Below, in pieces: positions 1,099-62,436 of a stretch of DNA of 64,000 bases. The stretch lies in the IMG/VR virus record IMGVR_UViG_3300003324_000863, positions 745 through 64,744 of that record, one strand, 5' to 3'. The DNA is from a virus. The stretch's first letter is position 1. Every line of letters begins with the position of its first letter. A program made the translations under genes and the position numbers. The notes beneath the pieces are model-generated. The model was not told the origin of the DNA, searched no databases, and worked only from the letters and a program-made list of their open reading frames with translations.

Positions 1099-2490
1099 CT
1101 ACCCGTAGTACCCCCAGTTGTGGATGCGGAGTTCTTTTGGGTAGTCGGGGCACCCATCCCAACAGCCGAGATGCTCGTACTTCTTGCAGGTACAGGACAC
1201 CTTCTGTCCTGTGGCTGTACTCTGGACTGCTGCTTGAGCCGAAGGTCCACAGTCCTTGTCGCACGCCTCGCCGTAGTGGGCAGCGCAGTCGGTCTTGTGT
1301 CCTTGAACATACCGGTAGGTCTTGTGGTAGTTGGCGCCTCCACTCGTCGGCGCGGCCGGCTTCTTCTCCTCGGCTGCCTTGGCGGCCTTGGCTTCGATGA
1401 TGCGCTTGGCCGCCTCGAACCGGGGGCGGGTGACCTGAGAGCGGGCGATCTCCCTCACCTCCTCGTCGGCGAACGCAGCCGCCATCTCCTTCTCCAGGTT
1501 CTCCAGGTACTCGAGCTGCTTCTTGCTCTCGACTGCCTCCTCACAGTAGTCATCCCGGATCTGGAGGATGGCCTCGTGTGCTCCGTATCCCCCGAGACAG
1601 ATGAGAAGCGAGGAGAGTCCGGTGCCGGTTCGGCCGTGTCCCCCAACACAGCAGAGGGTGACCCGGCCTTCGAGCTTGCCATGCCGGTCGATGAGGAGTT
1701 CCTTGATCCGTACCCAGAGGGCCAGCCAGAAGGGAGCGCCGACGGGGGGGATGCCCTGGTCCGGCCACTTGAACTTGATGAGGGCGCCCGGCTCCTTGGG
1801 TCGAGGGACCAGGACGTTCAGCGCCCGGAACTGCTCTGGTCCGGTGAGGACGAACTTGTCCGGGTCCTTGCCGAGGGAGTAGGAGTCAGCGAAGTCCAGC
1901 ACCACGTCCGGCTCGTAGTCCATGTCCAGGTTCGCGGCCTTCGACCCGGAGAAGACGACGTCCCCGATCTTGAAGACCAGGTCCAGGTCCGAGCCATCGT
2001 GCGGCCCGCTGCAGTTGGCCTTGTAGCTGTACCCCGTGCCCCCCGTGTAGCTCTGTCCTGTCCCGGTCACCTTCCCCTCCGTCTCCGGCGCCTTTACATC
2101 AGACGCCACTGTGCTCTCCACTCCCGCCTCCGTCCCGATGATCGTCTCTCCGTAGAGGTAGGTTGCCTGGTCGGGGTCGATGAAAGCGGCCTGGCCGAAC
2201 TTCTCGAAGATGAAGTCGTACCACCAGTCATCAGTCAGCTCGTCCAGGTTCTGGTCCTCCAGCCACTTGATGTACTCGTTGTACAGGCTGTCATCGACGG
2301 CGTCGAACTGGAACTCTGGCTTCAGATCATCGTGACCTAAGAGGTAGCCCGGGTACGTCTCTTCATCCTCGTCTTCCCAGTCATCATCGTCTGCTGCCAG
2401 CTCAGCTTGGACCGCACCGACGTCCCCATCGAGGAAGAGGAGGGCATCGGACTGGGGCTTCGGCTTCCCCTTAGTCTTCGTCTTCTTCAT
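1099..2490 (-). CDS. Cys-X5-Arg phosphatase-like protein with Cys-rich tail
   Basis: About 463 residues from ATG 2488-2490 (MKKTKTKGKPKPQ), with GAGGAGGAAG upstream; a farther in-frame start would lie deep inside the previous gene. The centre carries CCVGGHGRTGTG, the HCX5R(S/T)G P-loop of protein tyrosine/dual-specificity phosphatases, followed by a helical segment (LSSLLICLGGYGAHEAI) as in that fold. The N-terminal third is acidic. The C-terminus is Cys/His-rich (DCAAHYGEACDKDCG and CTCKKYEHLGCWDGCP), probably zinc-binding. It overlaps the large upstream gene by 20 nt, so the two are probably translationally coupled and may act together. Substrate unknown; the phosphatase call rests on the motif. 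Confidence 0.75.
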   Translation of the reverse strand: MKKTKTKGKPKPQSDALLFLDGDVGAVQAELAADDDDWEDEDEETYPGYLLGHDDLKPEFQFDAVDDSLYNEYIKWLEDQNLDELTDDWWYDFIFEKFGQAAFIDPDQATYLYGETIIGTEAGVESTVASDVKAPETEGKVTGTGQSYTGGTGYSYKANCSGPHDGSDLDLVFKIGDVVFSGSKAANLDMDYEPDVVLDFADSYSLGKDPDKFVLTGPEQFRALNVLVPRPKEPGALIKFKWPDQGIPPVGAPFWLALWVRIKELLIDRHGKLEGRVTLCCVGGHGRTGTGLSSLLICLGGYGAHEAILQIRDDYCEEAVESKKQLEYLENLEKEMAAAFADEEVREIARSQVTRPRFEAAKRIIEAKAAKAAEEKKPAAPTSGGANYHKTYRYVQGHKTDCAAHYGEACDKDCGPSAQAAVQSTATGQKVSCTCKKYEHLGCWDGCPDYPKELRIHNWGYYG

Positions 2491-9240: not shown

Positions 9241-9600
9241 TTACCTCCGATTCAGCTTGGTTGCCTCCGATAGCCTGTACTGTCGGTCCCTGTCGGGCTT
9301 CCAGCCTTCCAGGGCCCAGGGGTATTCCTCGGCTACACCGTCCTTCCAGCGGTTAGCCGCAACATACCGACGCTTACTCCGCTCCGCGTCCTGTTCCCGC
9401 ATATCGGAGACACGGGACTGTAGCGCTACGGCGTCGGACACCCTTTTCTGGGCATTGTCAAGGGGCAGCTCCCCAGTAAGGATACGTCGCTTAACTTCAG
9501 CCCGAAGCACGACGTTCCGTGCCTGATCCCCCAGAACCTGACGTGCCAGCAACTCCGCTTGGAGCTCAAGCATCTGCGCTAGCACGTCCGCCTCAGCCAC
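9241..9600 (-). CDS. Helical hypothetical protein
   Basis: About 119 residues, from a GTG (9598-9600) two bases after the stop of the previous gene, with GGGGGAA upstream: VAEADVLAQMLELQAELLAR. Mostly helical and charged. The start reading from 9642 would overlap the previous gene. Function unknown. Confidence 0.6.
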   Translation of the reverse strand: MAEADVLAQMLELQAELLARQVLGDQARNVVLRAEVKRRILTGELPLDNAQKRVSDAVALQSRVSDMREQDAERSKRRYVAANRWKDGVAEEYPWALEGWKPDRDRQYRLSEATKLNRR

Positions 9601-9602
9601 GG

Positions 9603-9740
9603 TTAGTTCCCCCAGTCCAGGTTGTCGAGGGGGATCATCCATCCCCGCGTCCCATCCGCGAACTGGACGTTGGCGAAGTCACCGATAACACGGTGAATGA
9701 TGCCCCACCGTCCATCGAACCAAACCCGATCGCCCGCCAT
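9603..9740 (-). CDS. Mini SH3/KOW-like protein
   Basis: 45 residues from ATG 9738-9740 (MAGDRVWFDGRWGIIHRVIG), chosen because GGAGGT lies 6 nt upstream. It is one small beta barrel of the 'GD+V ... G.I..V.. ..V.F.DG' pattern, similar to the modules in 5635-6447. It is the first gene of the minus-strand early block, directly after the repeat-bearing gap. Confidence 0.58.
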   Translation of the reverse strand: MAGDRVWFDGRWGIIHRVIGDFANVQFADGTRGWMIPLDNLDWGN

Positions 9741-10152
9741 GTCCAAACCTCCCACGTCGGCGTCCGTTGCTCGGTCGCCAGATGGGGAAATCATCGTGTA
9801 TACACGGCCGAGAATCAATACCCGAAACGGACCAATTTGACTCGGATTCTGTGTGCGTCAAAAAAGTGACACGTCGGAAAAGTGACATACGTAGGCACGA
9901 ATCGGCGATTCTGTAACAAAATCGCCTCGTGTTACTGCACAAAAATTGTTGATCAACAATCCCGACAATCGGCCGCCCAGTGGCCCCCGATGTGTCAGTA
10001 GCGGGGCATATCGCCAGAAACCGACACGTCAAAAAAGTGACACATCGCCGCGCAGCGCGGAGCTCCCACGGCCCCGCAGAGGCAGCGCCAGCCCGTCGGA
10101 AACGTAGGGCGGGGCAGCGCTGGGGACACCCCCCCTCCGATTTTTCTGCCCC
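9741..10152. other. Non-coding control region with AT-rich repeats
   Basis: No convincing gene. It contains two adjacent and one distant 16-bp repeats (9856-9871, 9872-9887, 10027-10042), a perfect 16-bp palindrome ATTGTTGATCAACAAT (9945-9960), and an inverted repeat GGCGAT ... ATCGCC (9904-9926). This AT-rich patch stands out in a GC-rich genome. It probably drives the minus-strand block below 9740 and could be a replication origin or master operator. Confidence 0.6.
9856..10042 (-). repeat. Three 16-bp iteron-like direct repeats
   Basis: On the minus strand: TGTCACTTTTTTGACG (10027-10042), TGTCACTTTTCCGACG (9872-9887) and TGTCACTTTTTTGACG (9856-9871). The last two abut. The T-rich core with a TTGACG end could also act as a -35 element. 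Between them sits the ATTGTTGATCAACAAT palindrome. Confidence 0.7.
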
Positions 10153-10512
10153 TCAATTTTGGGCTCGAACCTTTCCTGACCGCTTCCTGACCGATGCTTC
10201 CGGCCTTCCCAGAATCCGCTGCACGATCTGACGCGGCATCTCCGGGTGCTCCTCGAGGAACCGCAGCTCGGTGGGCGTCCAGGGGCGGCCGGAGTTCCGC
10301 GCGGTTCGGTGGTCGGAGAGCGGCCGCGTGAGGTTCAGGTGGGTCCAGGTCTTTCGGACGGCAATGTCGTGGATCGTCACTGGGGACACCCCGAACTCCG
10401 CCGCGATCTCCCGCTCCGTCTTCTCAGCGACCAGGAGCGCCCAGACCTGCCGGACCTTCTCCTCGGTCAGCCTGGCCCGGCCGTTCTGCGCCCCGACCCG
10501 TTCCATACTCAT
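10153..10512 (-). CDS. Helix-turn-helix DNA-binding protein
   Basis: 119 residues from ATG 10510-10512 (MSMERVGAQNGRARLTEEKV), with GGGAGGGA upstream. First motif: EKTEREIAAEFGVSPVTIHD, a clear HTH of the resolvase/homing-nuclease accessory type. Second: WTPTELRFLEEHPEMPRQIV with ILGRPEASVRKR, Myb/SANT-like. No nuclease residues seen. Next to the repeat-bearing gap at 9741-10152, it is a candidate binder of those repeats (inference). Confidence 0.72.
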   Translation of the reverse strand: MSMERVGAQNGRARLTEEKVRQVWALLVAEKTEREIAAEFGVSPVTIHDIAVRKTWTHLNLTRPLSDHRTARNSGRPWTPTELRFLEEHPEMPRQIVQRILGRPEASVRKRSGKVRAQN

Positions 10513-11521: not shown

Positions 11522-11547
11522 CGGTAGTCCTCCTCTCCAGTTGACCC

Positions 11548-11576
11548 AGTATACAGGCCGCACCTGCCCAGACAAA
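11548..11576 (-). promoter_or_regulatory. Promoter TTTGTC-17-TATACT preceded by a stem-loop
   Basis: Minus strand TTTGTC (11571-11576), 17 bp, TATACT (11548-11553), 27 bp before the ATG at 11521. Just upstream, GGACCGAGGGCGCAGTCC (11577-11594) forms a stem-loop whose sequence, with the CTTTGTCT tail, matches the one after the plus-strand promoter at 23085. The rest of 11595-11692 holds no gene I can support. Confidence 0.55.
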
Positions 11577-11692
11577 GGACTGCGCCCTCGGTCCTCTGGT
11601 GTCGCCTTACGTCAAGTAGAACCATAACAACTCCTCCGTTTTCCTGCATACTTCCTCACCGTTTCACCATGTATAATCTGGTCAAATTTTGG

Positions 11693-12889
11693 CTAACTCC
11701 CCAAACCCGGGCCAATCCGTGCCTGGAGTCCTTCATCTTCCGAACGATCTGACCCAGTACCCGACCCACTATCTGACCCAGTATCCTGACCCAGCATTCG
11801 GTTCATCGACTCCGCGACGCGCTGCCGGCTCTCGTCGTACCAGTGACCATACAGGTTCGCCGTGAGCCCGATGTTCGAGTGCCCCAGCGTCCGTGCCACA
11901 TCATTCAAGGATAGCCCCGAGGCCAGGAGAAGGGACGCCGCCAGGTGTCTCAGGCCATGGAAGGTCTGCCTGGGGAGCCCCGCCTTCCTGAGGATGTGCT
12001 GCATGTGCTTGGTCATCATCGCGGGGTGGATCGGCTTCCCCCGACGCACCCCACGGAAGAGCAGCTCGTCCTCCGACTCGGGGTGCCGCTTCTCCTTCAG
12101 CTTTACCAGCAGATCCCAGGTGAGCTTCGGGAGTCCCACGACGCGCCGGCTCCTCCGGGTCTTGGCATACTCCTTGACGACGAACTCCTTGTCGATCAGG
12201 TGCATCGTCCGGTTCACGGAGACGGTCCCCTTCTCCAGATCAATGTCCCGCCAGGTGAGAGCCCGCGCCTCCGCGGAGCGTAGCCCACAGGTCGCAGCGA
12301 TCACGTAGCACAAGCCCAGCCAGTCGTCTTGGATCACGGCAAGGAACTTCCGTGCCTCCTCAGGCGTCAGGGGCTTCATCTCCTTTCCCTTGACCTGGGG
12401 CGCCTCTGCCAGCTTCGCCACGTTCCGGGTCACCACGCCCCACTTCAGCGCGTGGTTCAGGGCCATCCGCAGGACCGCGCGGTGCTGGCCGATGGTCGAC
12501 TTCGCCAGGCCCCACTCGAGCTTCTTGGCAATGTAGGTCTCGACGTGGAGGGGCGTCAGCGCCCGGAGCCGGTACGCACCCAGCCCCGGGATGAGGTGGT
12601 GGGTCACGATGCTGGAGAAGGTCTGGTAGGAGTTCGCCTCGACATGGTTCTTCCGAAGGGCGAGCCAGTCCGTGAGGAAGTCGGCCAGGGTCGGGTCTTC
12701 ACTCAGCTCGCCCTGCAGCTCGGTCGGCGGCGTTCCCGTCCCCGCCCGCAGCAGCTCGATGGCCTGGTGGGCCTCCGATTCCGTCCGCCCGTAGACCGAG
12801 TGGAGGGTACCCCCGATCGTGATCCGACCTTCATACCGCCCATCCGGCCGGAGGCGAACGCTCCCTGTGCCCTTAGCCCTCCTGGCCAT
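11693..12889 (-). CDS. int: Tyrosine integrase
   Basis: 398 residues. An N-terminal AP2-like segment (RLRPDGRYEGRITIGGTLHS) and SAM-like core-binding helices precede the catalytic domain. Catalytic residues fit the family: Arg in GLRSAEARALTW, Lys in the beta hairpin KTRRSRRVV, HGLRH, and His in LGHSN with the nucleophile Tyr in LTANLYGHW. It would splice the phage into a host site. The C-terminus is extended by a Gly/Ser/Asp repeat (GSDSGSGTGSD). Its start lies 17 nt inside the DGQHR gene upstream, so they are probably co-translated. The att site is not identified. Confidence 0.93.
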   Translation of the reverse strand: MARRAKGTGSVRLRPDGRYEGRITIGGTLHSVYGRTESEAHQAIELLRAGTGTPPTELQGELSEDPTLADFLTDWLALRKNHVEANSYQTFSSIVTHHLIPGLGAYRLRALTPLHVETYIAKKLEWGLAKSTIGQHRAVLRMALNHALKWGVVTRNVAKLAEAPQVKGKEMKPLTPEEARKFLAVIQDDWLGLCYVIAATCGLRSAEARALTWRDIDLEKGTVSVNRTMHLIDKEFVVKEYAKTRRSRRVVGLPKLTWDLLVKLKEKRHPESEDELLFRGVRRGKPIHPAMMTKHMQHILRKAGLPRQTFHGLRHLAASLLLASGLSLNDVARTLGHSNIGLTANLYGHWYDESRQRVAESMNRMLGQDTGSDSGSGTGSDRSEDEGLQARIGPGLGS

Positions 12890-14306
12890 CGCCCTGCTGC
12901 CAGCGCTCCCGATCCTTCTGGATGATGTCGAAGACCGGCGATCGCTCCTCTTCAGGTGGTGCTGTTTCGGTCTCTGTGATCTGATTCACATTCACCTTGA
13001 GGAACTCGGGCCGGTTGGCGAACCACATCTTCAGGTAGTCCACCGCCCGCTGGAGGTCCTGCCGCCGGCCCATGGGCGCCGATGCCCCGACCTCGAACGC
13101 GCCGGTCTTCATCCAGATCGAGTCCTCGGTGATCGGGACCGCGGTGTGCTGGGCGATGGCGCCGAAGAACTCCCGAATGTCCTCCGCACTCGCGTCATCC
13201 TTGACCTCGTGGTAGAAGCCCGCCAGGACCCGCAGGAATGCCGTACTCCCGAGGAGGCTCGTCGTCCGGAGGTACTGAGGGCTGATGTCCTTGGTCAGCA
13301 TCTTCTCCACATCAGGGAAGGCCTTGAACAGGATCGTCAGGAACTGCTTCGTCGTGTCGGCCAGCTCCCGGTCCTTGTGACTTCGCTCCGCCTCCCGCTC
13401 CATGGCCCGGCCCACGCGGCCAGAGATCCCCACCTCGATGTCCCGCGTCAGGTCCGCGATGTGCTTGGCGCTGATCCAGTACGGGCTCTTCCCCGTGGTC
13501 CGGTCCCGCGCCAGGTCGACGACGTCCTTCAGGGCCGGCATCTCGAGCACGTAGTCCGTGGCACGGTTCACCACCTTGCGCCGGTCGAAGAGGACCCGCA
13601 GCGTGGCCCCCACCCCGAGCTGGGTATCGTTGATATCGACGAACATCTGCTCGTAGACCCGTTTGTCGTCCGTTACGTGAATTTGGATGCTTATCCGCTC
13701 GTTGAAGAACCGCCGCCGCTCGGCCTCCAGGTCCCGCAGCTGCTTCTCGAAGTGGGCCACGAGGCCATGGTTCTCATCTCGCTTCGCTGCGGCGAGGGAG
13801 CTCCGAGTGTCGTCGATCTTCTTGTTGAGCTCCCGGTAGGCAACGTGCAGGCCCTTGACCCGGTGCTGCCCGTCCAGGATGTGCAGGTCCCCCCGCGCGT
13901 CGCGAGGAATAGAGAGCACCCCGAACTGGCTCCCCCCGATTTCCTCATGCGCCTCGAAGTGGAATCGATCCCCAGGAGCCCGCAGAAGCAAGGCCCCCGA
14001 GACCCAGTCCTCATTCCCCCGCACGTAGTCTCCGAAGCCCTTGGCATGTGGGACGTTCAGGGGGCGCTGCCCTGTGTCAACCGTCTCCGACTCAGGCTCC
14101 GGAAGCGATGCAACGATCGCTGCGAGGCTGAGATCGATCGAGTAGACCGTCCGCTTTCCCTGGTGATACCGGGTTGCGAAGTAGCGGTCTGCCGTGTCGT
14201 ACCCCGTGAGGGCCACGTTCTCCCCCGAAGGTAAGACCACCTCTGCCCCCTGATCCTGTTCTTCGGCCCGCCGACGCCGCGGCCGGGCCTTCGCTGGCTC
14301 GCTCAT
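12873..14306 (-). CDS. DGQHR-domain (DndB-like) protein
   Basis: 477 residues. DLHILDGQHRVKGLHVAYRE carries the DGQHR signature shared with DndB and ParB-like proteins; DndB represses the DNA phosphorothioation genes in bacteria. A coiled coil follows (NKKIDDTRSSLAAAKRDENH) and then QMFVDINDTQLGVGATLRVL, also typical of the family. A basic N-terminal stretch (ARPRRRRAEEQ) may bind DNA. No dndC/D/E genes are nearby, so a role in regulation, host interaction or integration control is inference. Expressed from the 14338-14376 region and overlapping the integrase. Confidence 0.82.
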   Translation of the reverse strand: MSEPAKARPRRRRAEEQDQGAEVVLPSGENVALTGYDTADRYFATRYHQGKRTVYSIDLSLAAIVASLPEPESETVDTGQRPLNVPHAKGFGDYVRGNEDWVSGALLLRAPGDRFHFEAHEEIGGSQFGVLSIPRDARGDLHILDGQHRVKGLHVAYRELNKKIDDTRSSLAAAKRDENHGLVAHFEKQLRDLEAERRRFFNERISIQIHVTDDKRVYEQMFVDINDTQLGVGATLRVLFDRRKVVNRATDYVLEMPALKDVVDLARDRTTGKSPYWISAKHIADLTRDIEVGISGRVGRAMEREAERSHKDRELADTTKQFLTILFKAFPDVEKMLTKDISPQYLRTTSLLGSTAFLRVLAGFYHEVKDDASAEDIREFFGAIAQHTAVPITEDSIWMKTGAFEVGASAPMGRRQDLQRAVDYLKMWFANRPEFLKVNVNQITETETAPPEEERSPVFDIIQKDRERWQQGDGQEG

Positions 14307-14337
14307 GACTATTCCTTTCCGCCGTTAGGCGTTTATG

Positions 14338-14376
14338 TGCTTAATAAGCATACCTCACATGTGATCTGGTTAACAA
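14338..14376 (-). promoter_or_regulatory. Promoter and operator of the DGQHR-integrase operon
   Basis: Minus strand TTGTTA (14371-14376), 18 bp, TATGCT (14347-14352). The palindrome TGCTTAATAAGCA (14338-14350) covers the -10 and likely start site and belongs to the TTAAGC operator family. A second palindrome, TCACATGTGA (14355-14364), lies in the spacer. This fits a repressed lysogeny promoter. Confidence 0.55.
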
Positions 14377-14405
14377 GAAGTATTCGGTAACTGTTCAGGA
14401 ATGTT

Positions 14406-14603
14406 TCAGGAAACAGCCCGTAACCTGTATAGCACATAATGTGAATGATACCCGGGGACATAGATCAGCTCCCCCTCTTCCAGATCCTCGACGACCTGAT
14501 ACCCCAGCTTCTCAACCGATCGCGCCTCATCATCGCTGCACGGCTCGTCCTGGACCTCAACCTCCTCGTCGGAAATCCGGTACGCTGGGAACAACTGGAA
14601 CAT
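14406..14603 (-). CDS. Small acidic hypothetical protein
   Basis: 65 residues, MFQLFPAYRISDEEVEVQDE, strongly acidic, with a beta-like end (EGELIYVPGYHSHYVLYRLR). GGAGG upstream. No family recognised. First minus-strand gene at the divergent boundary with the plus-strand block. Confidence 0.55.
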   Translation of the reverse strand: MFQLFPAYRISDEEVEVQDEPCSDDEARSVEKLGYQVVEDLEEGELIYVPGYHSHYVLYRLRAVS

Positions 14604-59911: not shown

Positions 59912-60155
59912 GCGTCAGCCACCTCCATGCCTTGGGGCCCCAGACATCGATGGTCCAGGGATGTGCTTCCTTCCGCACCTCGTCGACGACCTTGAGCTGC
60001 GCGATGGCTCCCATCGTGTACCCAATTCGGAACAGCATCTCCTGGTCGGCAACCGTTCCCATCCCGATCTGGCACTGGACAAACTTCCAGTCGTTGGTGA
60101 GATGAGCTTCCCATAGGCGGTCTGCGATGGTCATCTCCTTATCCGGCTTGGGCAA
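59898..60155 (-). CDS. Hypothetical helical protein
   Basis: 85 residues (MPKPDKEMTIADRLWEAHLT). The middle ADQEMLFRIGYTMGAIAQLK is helical. Its start lies inside the end of the polymerase gene by 17 nt. Function unknown. Confidence 0.6.
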   Translation of the reverse strand: MPKPDKEMTIADRLWEAHLTNDWKFVQCQIGMGTVADQEMLFRIGYTMGAIAQLKVVDEVRKEAHPWTIDVWGPKAWRWLTHAGR

Positions 60156-62436
60156 GGTAGACCTCCAAGGGTTCCTGATCGACCCAGTTCGGGCCCGCCG
60201 TCACCTCGACGACTAGGGGCACCATCACCTCAGGAGCCCCGCACTCTGCTCCGATCCGCTGCATCGCTTCGCCCACCTCCTTCACCGCCCCTATGGGCAC
60301 CTCAGCATTGACCTCATCGTGAACCTGGAGCACCGGCACTGCATCGTAGTAGTCGAACACCTCCTGCATCTGGGCCATCCACCGCTTGATGATCCCCGCT
60401 TCCGTTGCCTGGATGGGCATGTTCGCCGCCTCCCTCAAGGCTGCCGCCTTCTCCCGGTAGATCGGGCTGAAGTACTGGGGGTAGTAGTTCATCCATCCGT
60501 ACTTGCTCTCCACATACCCATGCATCTCGAGGAACCGTTCCACCGTCTCGGGCCACTCCAGGAAGGCGGGCATCCTGGTCTTGATGGTCTTGAGGAACGC
60601 ATCCGCCTCCCCTGCCGGGACGCCCGCTGTGACCGCCAGCTTATCGATCGCTACTCCGAACATGACTGCGAACAGGCTGTTCTTCGCCGGCTTCCGATCG
60701 ATCCCGAGCATATCCGCCGCAGCCTGATGGACGTCCTGGCCCGTTCGATACGCTTCCAGAAGGACGGGCTCCTGGGTGTAGTCCGCGAAGACCCGAACCT
60801 GTAGCTGAGAAAAGTCACCGTGTACCCAGACGTGGCCGGGTCGAGCGACAAATGCACGTCGTAGTTGCTTGCCAAGATCAGTCCGTGCCGGAACGTTCTG
60901 CAGATTAGGCTTGCTCGAGCTGAGCCGATCCGTATCTGTAACTGTCTGGTGGTACTGGGTGTGGACCCGGCCCTCGCCATCCCGCAGAGCCAGGAGCTTT
61001 CGGACGTAAGTGGATCGGAACTTGATGAGGCCACGTCGATCGAGAACCGCCTGAGCAAACTCCCGAACATCCTCGCCCAGCTCACCCTTGACCACCTCCT
61101 CCAATACAGCCTCATCGACGCAGATCTTCCCGGTCTCGGTGAACTTCTTCGGCACCCATCCCCTGGCCATGAGCCACTCGGCTACCTGCTCGTTGGACCC
61201 GGGGTTCTCGATGTCCGCGTTCGCTTTCAGGAGACCGTCACAATCATCGAGCGCTTCGTTGGCCCACTCTTCCAGACCTGCAAGGATATCCGGATCGACC
61301 AGCACCCCGGCAGATTCCATGCGGTGAAGGATCGGGACCACGGGCTTCTCGAACTCCAGGTAGTAACGTCGCCTGGGCGGGTCCCGATCCAGGAGTTCTC
61401 GAATGATCTCCCAGCACCGGGCAGTAACCACCGCGTCAAGAATCGCATACTCCACCCCTGACTCGTAATCCTCTTCCAGGACCTGACTGAACTTCCGGCC
61501 CTTAGCCACCTCGTTGAACGTCCGCATCTGCATCCGGGTCAGCTTCGGGCCCAGCTCCTTCAGTGCGTGGGGGAGCCGGAGCACGTACGCGGCGAGGAGT
61601 ACGTCCTCCCAGTTCACCTCGTCGAACCCGAGCCCCATCTTCGGGAGGTCTGCCCGGATATGAGCGAACGCGGTGGTCTTCTCTCTGGCCCGGAGCTTCT
61701 CCTGGATGAACGGGAGCTGGTCCGCAGTCCAGAGGTACCCGCACCACGGCGCCGCTACCTGTACCGACACCAGCGTATCCTGCCCGGCCACGTCCCCCTT
61801 GTCCGCGGTATCGTACTCCGTGTCCACCCCGAGCACGTCGGCCGTCCAGTTGGCGTACTGCGTCCACGGTTCTGGCTCGGGCAGCTGCTCCGGTGTCACC
61901 CCGACCAGTTCCTCCACGATCCGTCTGATCTCCGCTTCCCATGCCGTCCGCTTCCCCGGACTCCGGAGGATGTACGCCGGGTGGTAGACGTGGGCCACCA
62001 TCCCCTCGTACCCCGTGTCCTCGAGCACCTTGGCCAAGCCCTTCTCACTGACCTCACCAAGACATAGGATGAGTCGTGGCTTCAGCTTCAGGATCTCGTA
62101 GGCCAGGTACGGGGAGCAGTTCTCCACCTCCTCGGCCGTCGGCTTCCGATCGCCCCCGCCTTTCGGGTTCTTCCCGGGGTAGCACCGCACGGCGTTCGTG
62201 TACCAGGTGCTGAGAAGTGGGAGGTGCTGCTCCATGCAAACGGTGCCGATGATTGTCGCCAACACTGGCCGGATGAGCTGCCCCGCCTGTCCTGCGAACG
62301 GGTATCCTAGCTGGTCTTCCGTCCATCCCGGTGCCTGGCCGATGCACAGGATGTCCACCTTCTCCGGCGGGACCGGGCTCACCACCCTACTCCTGGTCTC
62401 GCACATGCTGGGGCACAAAGAACACGTCTGATTCAT
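60139..62436 (-). CDS. polA: Uracil-DNA glycosylase / DNA polymerase I fusion
   Basis: 765 residues. First 170: UDG family-4-like (CSLCPSMCE, GQAPGWTEDQLGYPFAGQAG, HPAYILRSPGKR) with Cys pairs for an Fe-S cluster. Next, a 3'-5' exonuclease-like region (DTEYDTADKGDVAGQDT, AHIRADLPKMGL, LEEDYESGVEYAILDAVVTA). C-terminal 390: polymerase A, with motif A HGDFSQLQVRVFADYTQEPV, B RKPAKNSLFAVMFGVAI and C LQVHDEVNAEVP. In motif A the usual Glu (DYSQIELR) is Gln. The phage replicative polymerase. Confidence 0.92.
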   Translation of the reverse strand: MNQTCSLCPSMCETRSRVVSPVPPEKVDILCIGQAPGWTEDQLGYPFAGQAGQLIRPVLATIIGTVCMEQHLPLLSTWYTNAVRCYPGKNPKGGGDRKPTAEEVENCSPYLAYEILKLKPRLILCLGEVSEKGLAKVLEDTGYEGMVAHVYHPAYILRSPGKRTAWEAEIRRIVEELVGVTPEQLPEPEPWTQYANWTADVLGVDTEYDTADKGDVAGQDTLVSVQVAAPWCGYLWTADQLPFIQEKLRAREKTTAFAHIRADLPKMGLGFDEVNWEDVLLAAYVLRLPHALKELGPKLTRMQMRTFNEVAKGRKFSQVLEEDYESGVEYAILDAVVTARCWEIIRELLDRDPPRRRYYLEFEKPVVPILHRMESAGVLVDPDILAGLEEWANEALDDCDGLLKANADIENPGSNEQVAEWLMARGWVPKKFTETGKICVDEAVLEEVVKGELGEDVREFAQAVLDRRGLIKFRSTYVRKLLALRDGEGRVHTQYHQTVTDTDRLSSSKPNLQNVPARTDLGKQLRRAFVARPGHVWVHGDFSQLQVRVFADYTQEPVLLEAYRTGQDVHQAAADMLGIDRKPAKNSLFAVMFGVAIDKLAVTAGVPAGEADAFLKTIKTRMPAFLEWPETVERFLEMHGYVESKYGWMNYYPQYFSPIYREKAAALREAANMPIQATEAGIIKRWMAQMQEVFDYYDAVPVLQVHDEVNAEVPIGAVKEVGEAMQRIGAECGAPEVMVPLVVEVTAGPNWVDQEPLEVYLAQAG

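Follow-up and report, generated by a model that had tools for sequence, protein, structure and literature searches.

What function is served by the 412 non-coding bases at positions 9741-10152 of this phage sequence, and by the three 16-bp repeats that they harbor? The window, i.e., the entire stretch of 64,000 nucleotides analyzed here, extends from position 745 to position 64744 of a virus record of 66,169 bp, which stems from an uncultivated phage. Its gene set is that of a tailed phage, with genes for terminase, portal and tape-measure proteins as well as for a helicase and a PolA-type polymerase. The phage also encodes a DndB-like DGQHR protein and a tyrosine integrase, and because of their presence it may be temperate. 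The two ends of the record do not overlap, and the record may therefore be incomplete; a run of C at its last bases is probably an assembly artefact. We propose that the gap constitutes the cis-regulatory region of a leftward block of genes starting at position 9740. The gap and its surroundings comprise the following features.

9241 to 9600, minus strand: second gene of the leftward block, encoding a 119-aa protein with no assigned family
9603 to 9740, minus strand: opening gene of the leftward block, located downstream of the gap; 45-aa open reading frame whose ribosome site is GGGAGG
9741 to 10152, no strand: non-coding gap of 412 bases between two minus-strand genes, delimited by codon-usage gene calls and the table of open reading frames
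9851 to 9970, no strand: 120 bp with 44% GC, the most AT-rich part of the gap
10153 to 10512, minus strand: gene for a 119-aa helix-turn-helix (HTH) protein, a candidate to bind the repeats; the stop codon of the gene adjoins the gap

A preliminary description of this locus had the HTH gene start next to the gap. According to the codon-usage gene calls, it has its ATG at 10512 and runs down to 10153; as the gene lies on the minus strand, it is its stop codon, and not its start, that faces the gap. Since the HTH gene ends at the gap and the next minus-strand gene starts at 9740, the gap represents the upstream region of the leftward genes. These form a run of 14 small or unknown-family genes, most of them without a known family in family searches. 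The same description had called the gap AT-rich, a characterization that is correct for positions 9851-9970, the second AT-richest region in the window after that around 14.3-14.5 kb; it does not apply to the gap as a whole, which has a GC content of 57.8% vs. 63.6% for the window and is GC-rich between 10051 and 10150. No Rfam family was detected in the gap, the sole match in the window being a tRNA near position 250 (a tRNA-Gln gene with the anticodon CTG is located at 211-286 on the minus strand). A GC-rich hairpin that follows the stop codon of the HTH gene is, when folded as RNA, no stronger than its shuffled counterparts (z -0.4); the whole gap, folded as DNA, is stronger than shuffles (z -3.2).

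The most conspicuous elements of the gap are its direct repeats, which on the plus strand all match CGTCRRAAAAGTGACA with 0 mismatches (9856-9871, 9872-9887 and 10027-10042) and on the minus strand read as follows.

9856 to 9871, minus strand: repeat 1, TGTCACTTTTTTGACG (CGTCAAAAAAGTGACA on the plus strand), with the inner symmetry GTCA-N6-TGAC
9872 to 9887, minus strand: repeat 2, TGTCACTTTTCCGACG, abutting repeat 1 with a 16-bp period
10027 to 10042, minus strand: repeat 3, TGTCACTTTTTTGACG, identical to repeat 1 over 17 bp and separated by 139 bp from repeat 2

The three repeats, two of them abutting and the third at a distance previously given as 140 bp, are hence present as described, have the same orientation, and are spaced by 139 bp. 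A search that tolerated up to 3 mismatches revealed no further copy in the window, and one that tolerated up to 2 revealed none in the rest of the 66,169-bp record. Exact direct repeats in the gap reach a length of 17 bp, whereas the maximum attained in 5000 Markov-simulated gaps was 15, and none of the other intergenic gaps of at least 150 bp contains a direct repeat longer than 11. Moreover, the abutting pair is the only tandem with a period of 16 and at least 14/16 identity in the 64 kb. Each repeat carries the same sense as the downstream leftward genes and reads TGTCAC-TTTT-YYGACG in the transcribed sense, with the half-sites GTCA and (T/C)GAC spaced by one helical turn. The window contains no more than four instances of the symmetric motif GTCA-N6-TGAC, and repeats 1 and 3 account for two of them. 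The repeats are a real, non-random and well-placed cluster of cis-elements.

Two further elements with dyad symmetry sit between the abutting pair and the third repeat, and both the perfect 16-bp palindrome and the additional inverted repeat that had been noted before could be located.

9904 to 9926, no strand: near-perfect 23-bp inverted repeat GGCGATTCTGTAACAAAATCGCC (10/11 pairs), composed of GGCGATTCTGT-A-ACAAAATCGCC
9945 to 9960, no strand: perfect 16-bp palindrome ATTGTTGATCAACAAT

The palindrome taken alone is only mildly unusual, as perfect palindromes of 16 bp or more turn up in about 0.7% of the simulated gaps, and the window has two more of 16 bp elsewhere. In addition, a 10-bp inverted pair is formed by CGATGTGTCA (9988-9997) and TGACACATCG (10038-10047), the right member of which takes in the edge of repeat 3. 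Might the gap then have no function at all, its repeats stemming from a word of 16-17 bp that was duplicated locally and its palindromes from chance? Slippage and recombination do generate short duplications of this kind, the two additional palindromes of the window fit such a view, and no relatives were found that would attest to constraint. However, three copies, one of them distant from the other two, have been kept nearly identical together with their internal symmetry, a constellation that the simulated gaps never reach, and we consider this explanation improbable.

The gap is most simply proposed to be an operator because three confined, two-fold-symmetric sites of the same sense precede a block of genes. 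An operator region is expected to contain several sites of near-identical sequence, restricted to non-coding DNA ahead of a transcription unit, and this is what was found. We infer that the repeats are protein-binding sites that control transcription, and we lean slightly toward the gap being a cis-acting transcription control (operator) region for the leftward block beginning at 9740. In such a scheme, a DNA-binding protein of either the phage or its host would recognize the 16-bp repeats; by occupying the abutting pair as well as the distal copy, on either side of the two palindromes, it would repress or activate leftward transcription. The adjacent HTH protein with its two units would be the nearest candidate for the binding partner. 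In favor of an operator speak the position of the gap between two co-directional minus-strand genes, ahead of a gene whose ribosome site is good, the two palindromes, and the DNA-binding HTH protein encoded next door. Against it speak the lack of a recognized promoter in the gap (see below), the distance of 116 bp between the last repeat and the start of the first gene, the nature of the adjacent HTH gene, which is not of the CI/Cro type, and the absence of comparative support, as relatives were searched for and none were found. Taken together, the gap is most likely an ordinary phage control region.

A promoter to which such an operator would belong was sought in the gap. No sigma-70-like promoter reached the threshold of the scan. 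The extended -10 motif TGNTANNNT has no copy in the gap either. Throughout the window, 10 of its 21 copies are intergenic, and intergenic DNA accounts for 13.7% of the sequence; this concentration suggests that the motif marks the usual promoter type of the phage. The promoter of the leftward block may be of another type, may be located elsewhere, or may depend on an activator.

The HTH protein itself matches HTH_23 (weakly), HTH families associated with HNH endonucleases, and a D5-like regulator family; no match to CI/Cro (CI-type) repressors was recognized. Its structure model consists of two helical units and is of low confidence (mean pLDDT 63). The protein remains a candidate ligand of the repeats, and their implied pairing is weakened because the HTH gene ends at the gap and its product resembles the DNA-binding tails of HNH endonucleases and D5-like regulators. 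A more elaborate scenario would have the product of 10153-10512 serve as the regulator of the phage. A monomer would contact the 16-bp site with both of its DNA-binding units, and control of the block would come about by a bridge from the abutting pair over the palindromes to the distal site, in a lysis-lysogeny or early switch derived from a captured homing-endonuclease domain. We deem this very unlikely.

The main rival to the operator is a replication origin, in which an initiator would bind to the 16-mers as its iterons, and the palindromes together with the stretch of 44% GC would form the unwinding element. The preliminary description had left the choice between an origin and the main operator of the early block open. 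The operator is backed by the anatomy of the gap and by its confined, symmetric sites of uniform sense; for an origin, the short AT-rich stretch is the only one of the other hallmarks that we encountered. Direct repeats do adjoin a stretch that is exceeded in AT content by only one other in the window. Iteron plasmids can possess as few as two or three iterons, usually of 17-22 bp (PMC4980987). A shift in synonymous-site skew lies somewhere between 8.9 and 11.7 kb and thus brackets the gap; however, comparably large shifts are seen elsewhere, near 45 and 57 kb, and the one at the gap is consequently not specific. The 16-bp period corresponds to approximately 1.5 helical turns and places neighboring repeats half a turn out of phase, and half-turn offsets abolished cooperative Rep binding in a case that was studied (PMC4980987). 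No initiator or Rep-like protein was recognized among the screened genes of the left block, many of which lack any family, and the genes for the polymerase and the helicase are situated about 50 kb away on the record. A DnaA box (TTWTNCACA, up to 1 mismatch) does not occur in 9741-10152, although DnaA boxes are not needed by all phage origins. An origin is accordingly possible, but a weaker reading than the operator, and on its own terms rather unlikely.

A second function that could call for repeated binding sites is site-specific recombination. The tyrosine integrase is encoded at 11693-12889, about 1.5 kb away, and the gap could be its attP site, with the repeats serving as arm-type sites. 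The first 66 residues of the integrase, ahead of a SAM-like core-binding domain, could form an arm-binding domain, and the layout of the repeats, with a pair on one side and a single copy on the other, resembles that of an attP. Five genes or gaps, however, intervene between the integrase gene and the repeats, and the arm-like repeats TACTGGGTCAG are found much nearer to this gene, a more natural position for an attP: at its 3' end, four copies in tandem occupy 11747-11796, and a fifth lies at 11539-11551, in the gap next to the gene. We consider the gap at 9741-10152 very unlikely to be attP, as it lies 1.5 kb off and not beside the integrase gene, to which a separate set of repeats adjoins. 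The TACTGGGTCAG repeats look like integrase arm-type sites, and attP may be located around 11550-11750; with 3 mismatches allowed, they are not strongly enriched across the window, and this position of attP is only suggested.

The gene for the DndB-like DGQHR-domain protein (12873-14306, minus strand) overlaps the start of the integrase gene, and the best plasmid matches of its product are actinobacterial, with 35-36% identity. No part of the window is richer in AT than the stretch just upstream of this gene (14300-14450); this stretch, which contains TGTTCAGGAA/TGTTTCAGGAAA repeats, may be a further control region.

Least probable of all, in our judgment, is that the repeats, with their GTGACA ends, are sites for a TnsB-like transposase or a ParB-like protein and hence mark a transposon end or a recombination or partition site. 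Arrays of the similar words TGTCANAAAAGTGACA occur in a few unrelated bacterial contigs. However, the neighbors that we checked in these contigs comprise neither a transposase nor a partition gene, and no transposase gene was recognized beside the gap. The scan of bacterial contigs allowed 3-30 bases between the words (the window has 2), so that exact 16-bp tandems fell outside its scope; its 106 matches are scattered and stay at or below the chance estimate of about 200. The idea of a transposon end was dropped, the neighbors of the contig matches being unrelated. The exact 16-mer as a single copy is present in 13 IMG/VR stretches, none of them with a second good copy nearby. A correctly spaced tandem of it was not found in IMG/VR, and a literature search gave no match to the repeat sequence.

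To place the locus into a comparative frame, relatives were sought at several levels. Neither blastn with the gap region nor megablast with the first 25 kb retrieved anything from the phage collection, and tblastn of g12, g13 and the DndB-like protein against phages gave no match. Scans of IMG/VR with peptide patterns from the 914-aa protein, the HTH protein, the portal, the DndB-like protein, the integrase and g12 yielded no relative, nor did a scan of GTDB genomes with that of the integrase; such scans with single proteins reach close relatives only. Among 346 sampled genomes of one phylum, only generic integrases (at most 39% identity) and one DndB-like protein (37%) turned up. With the methods used, no relative carrying the flanking genes was thus found in IMG/VR, the phage collection or the GTDB genomes.

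Both phage operators and iteron-type origins are well-known elements, and the gap can be set against established examples of each. Like the OL/OR-type operators of lambda, it offers a few near-identical, two-fold-symmetric sites of 16-17 bp in non-coding DNA that precedes a block of genes. It differs from them in that no CI/Cro-type gene was recognized alongside, the HTH gene is co-directional and not divergent, and no sigma-70 promoter was recognized. With the iteron origins of pSC101, RK2, P1 and lambda (lambda ori), it shares direct repeats of the same sense beside an AT-rich stretch; unlike in these, the period is 16 bp (half-turn phase), neither a Rep gene nor a DnaA box was recognized, and the third copy is 139 bp away. 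The stoperators of cluster A mycobacteriophages likewise consist of repeats in the sense of transcription with a protein possessing two DNA-binding units nearby. They number, however, more than twenty, are 13 bp long and occur throughout the genome (PMC9283540), whereas the phage studied here has three 16-mers, all in one gap, and not dispersed over its genome; we therefore rejected an identity with stoperators. Should the leftward block have its operator in the gap, the control point of a phage without a close sequenced relative would be located, and a defined 16-bp target for finding the regulator of this phage would be at hand; our general understanding would be unchanged even so.

Two further genes of the window deserve a brief mention. 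The 463-aa protein encoded at 1099-2490 (minus strand) has one region weakly like DSP/PTP-type phosphatases; it also matches a PHROG labelled thymidylate synthase, a label that is probably wrong. The 748-aa protein encoded at 60139-62385 (minus strand) joins an N-terminus resembling family-4 uracil-DNA glycosylases (residues about 7-160) to a PolA-type DNA polymerase.
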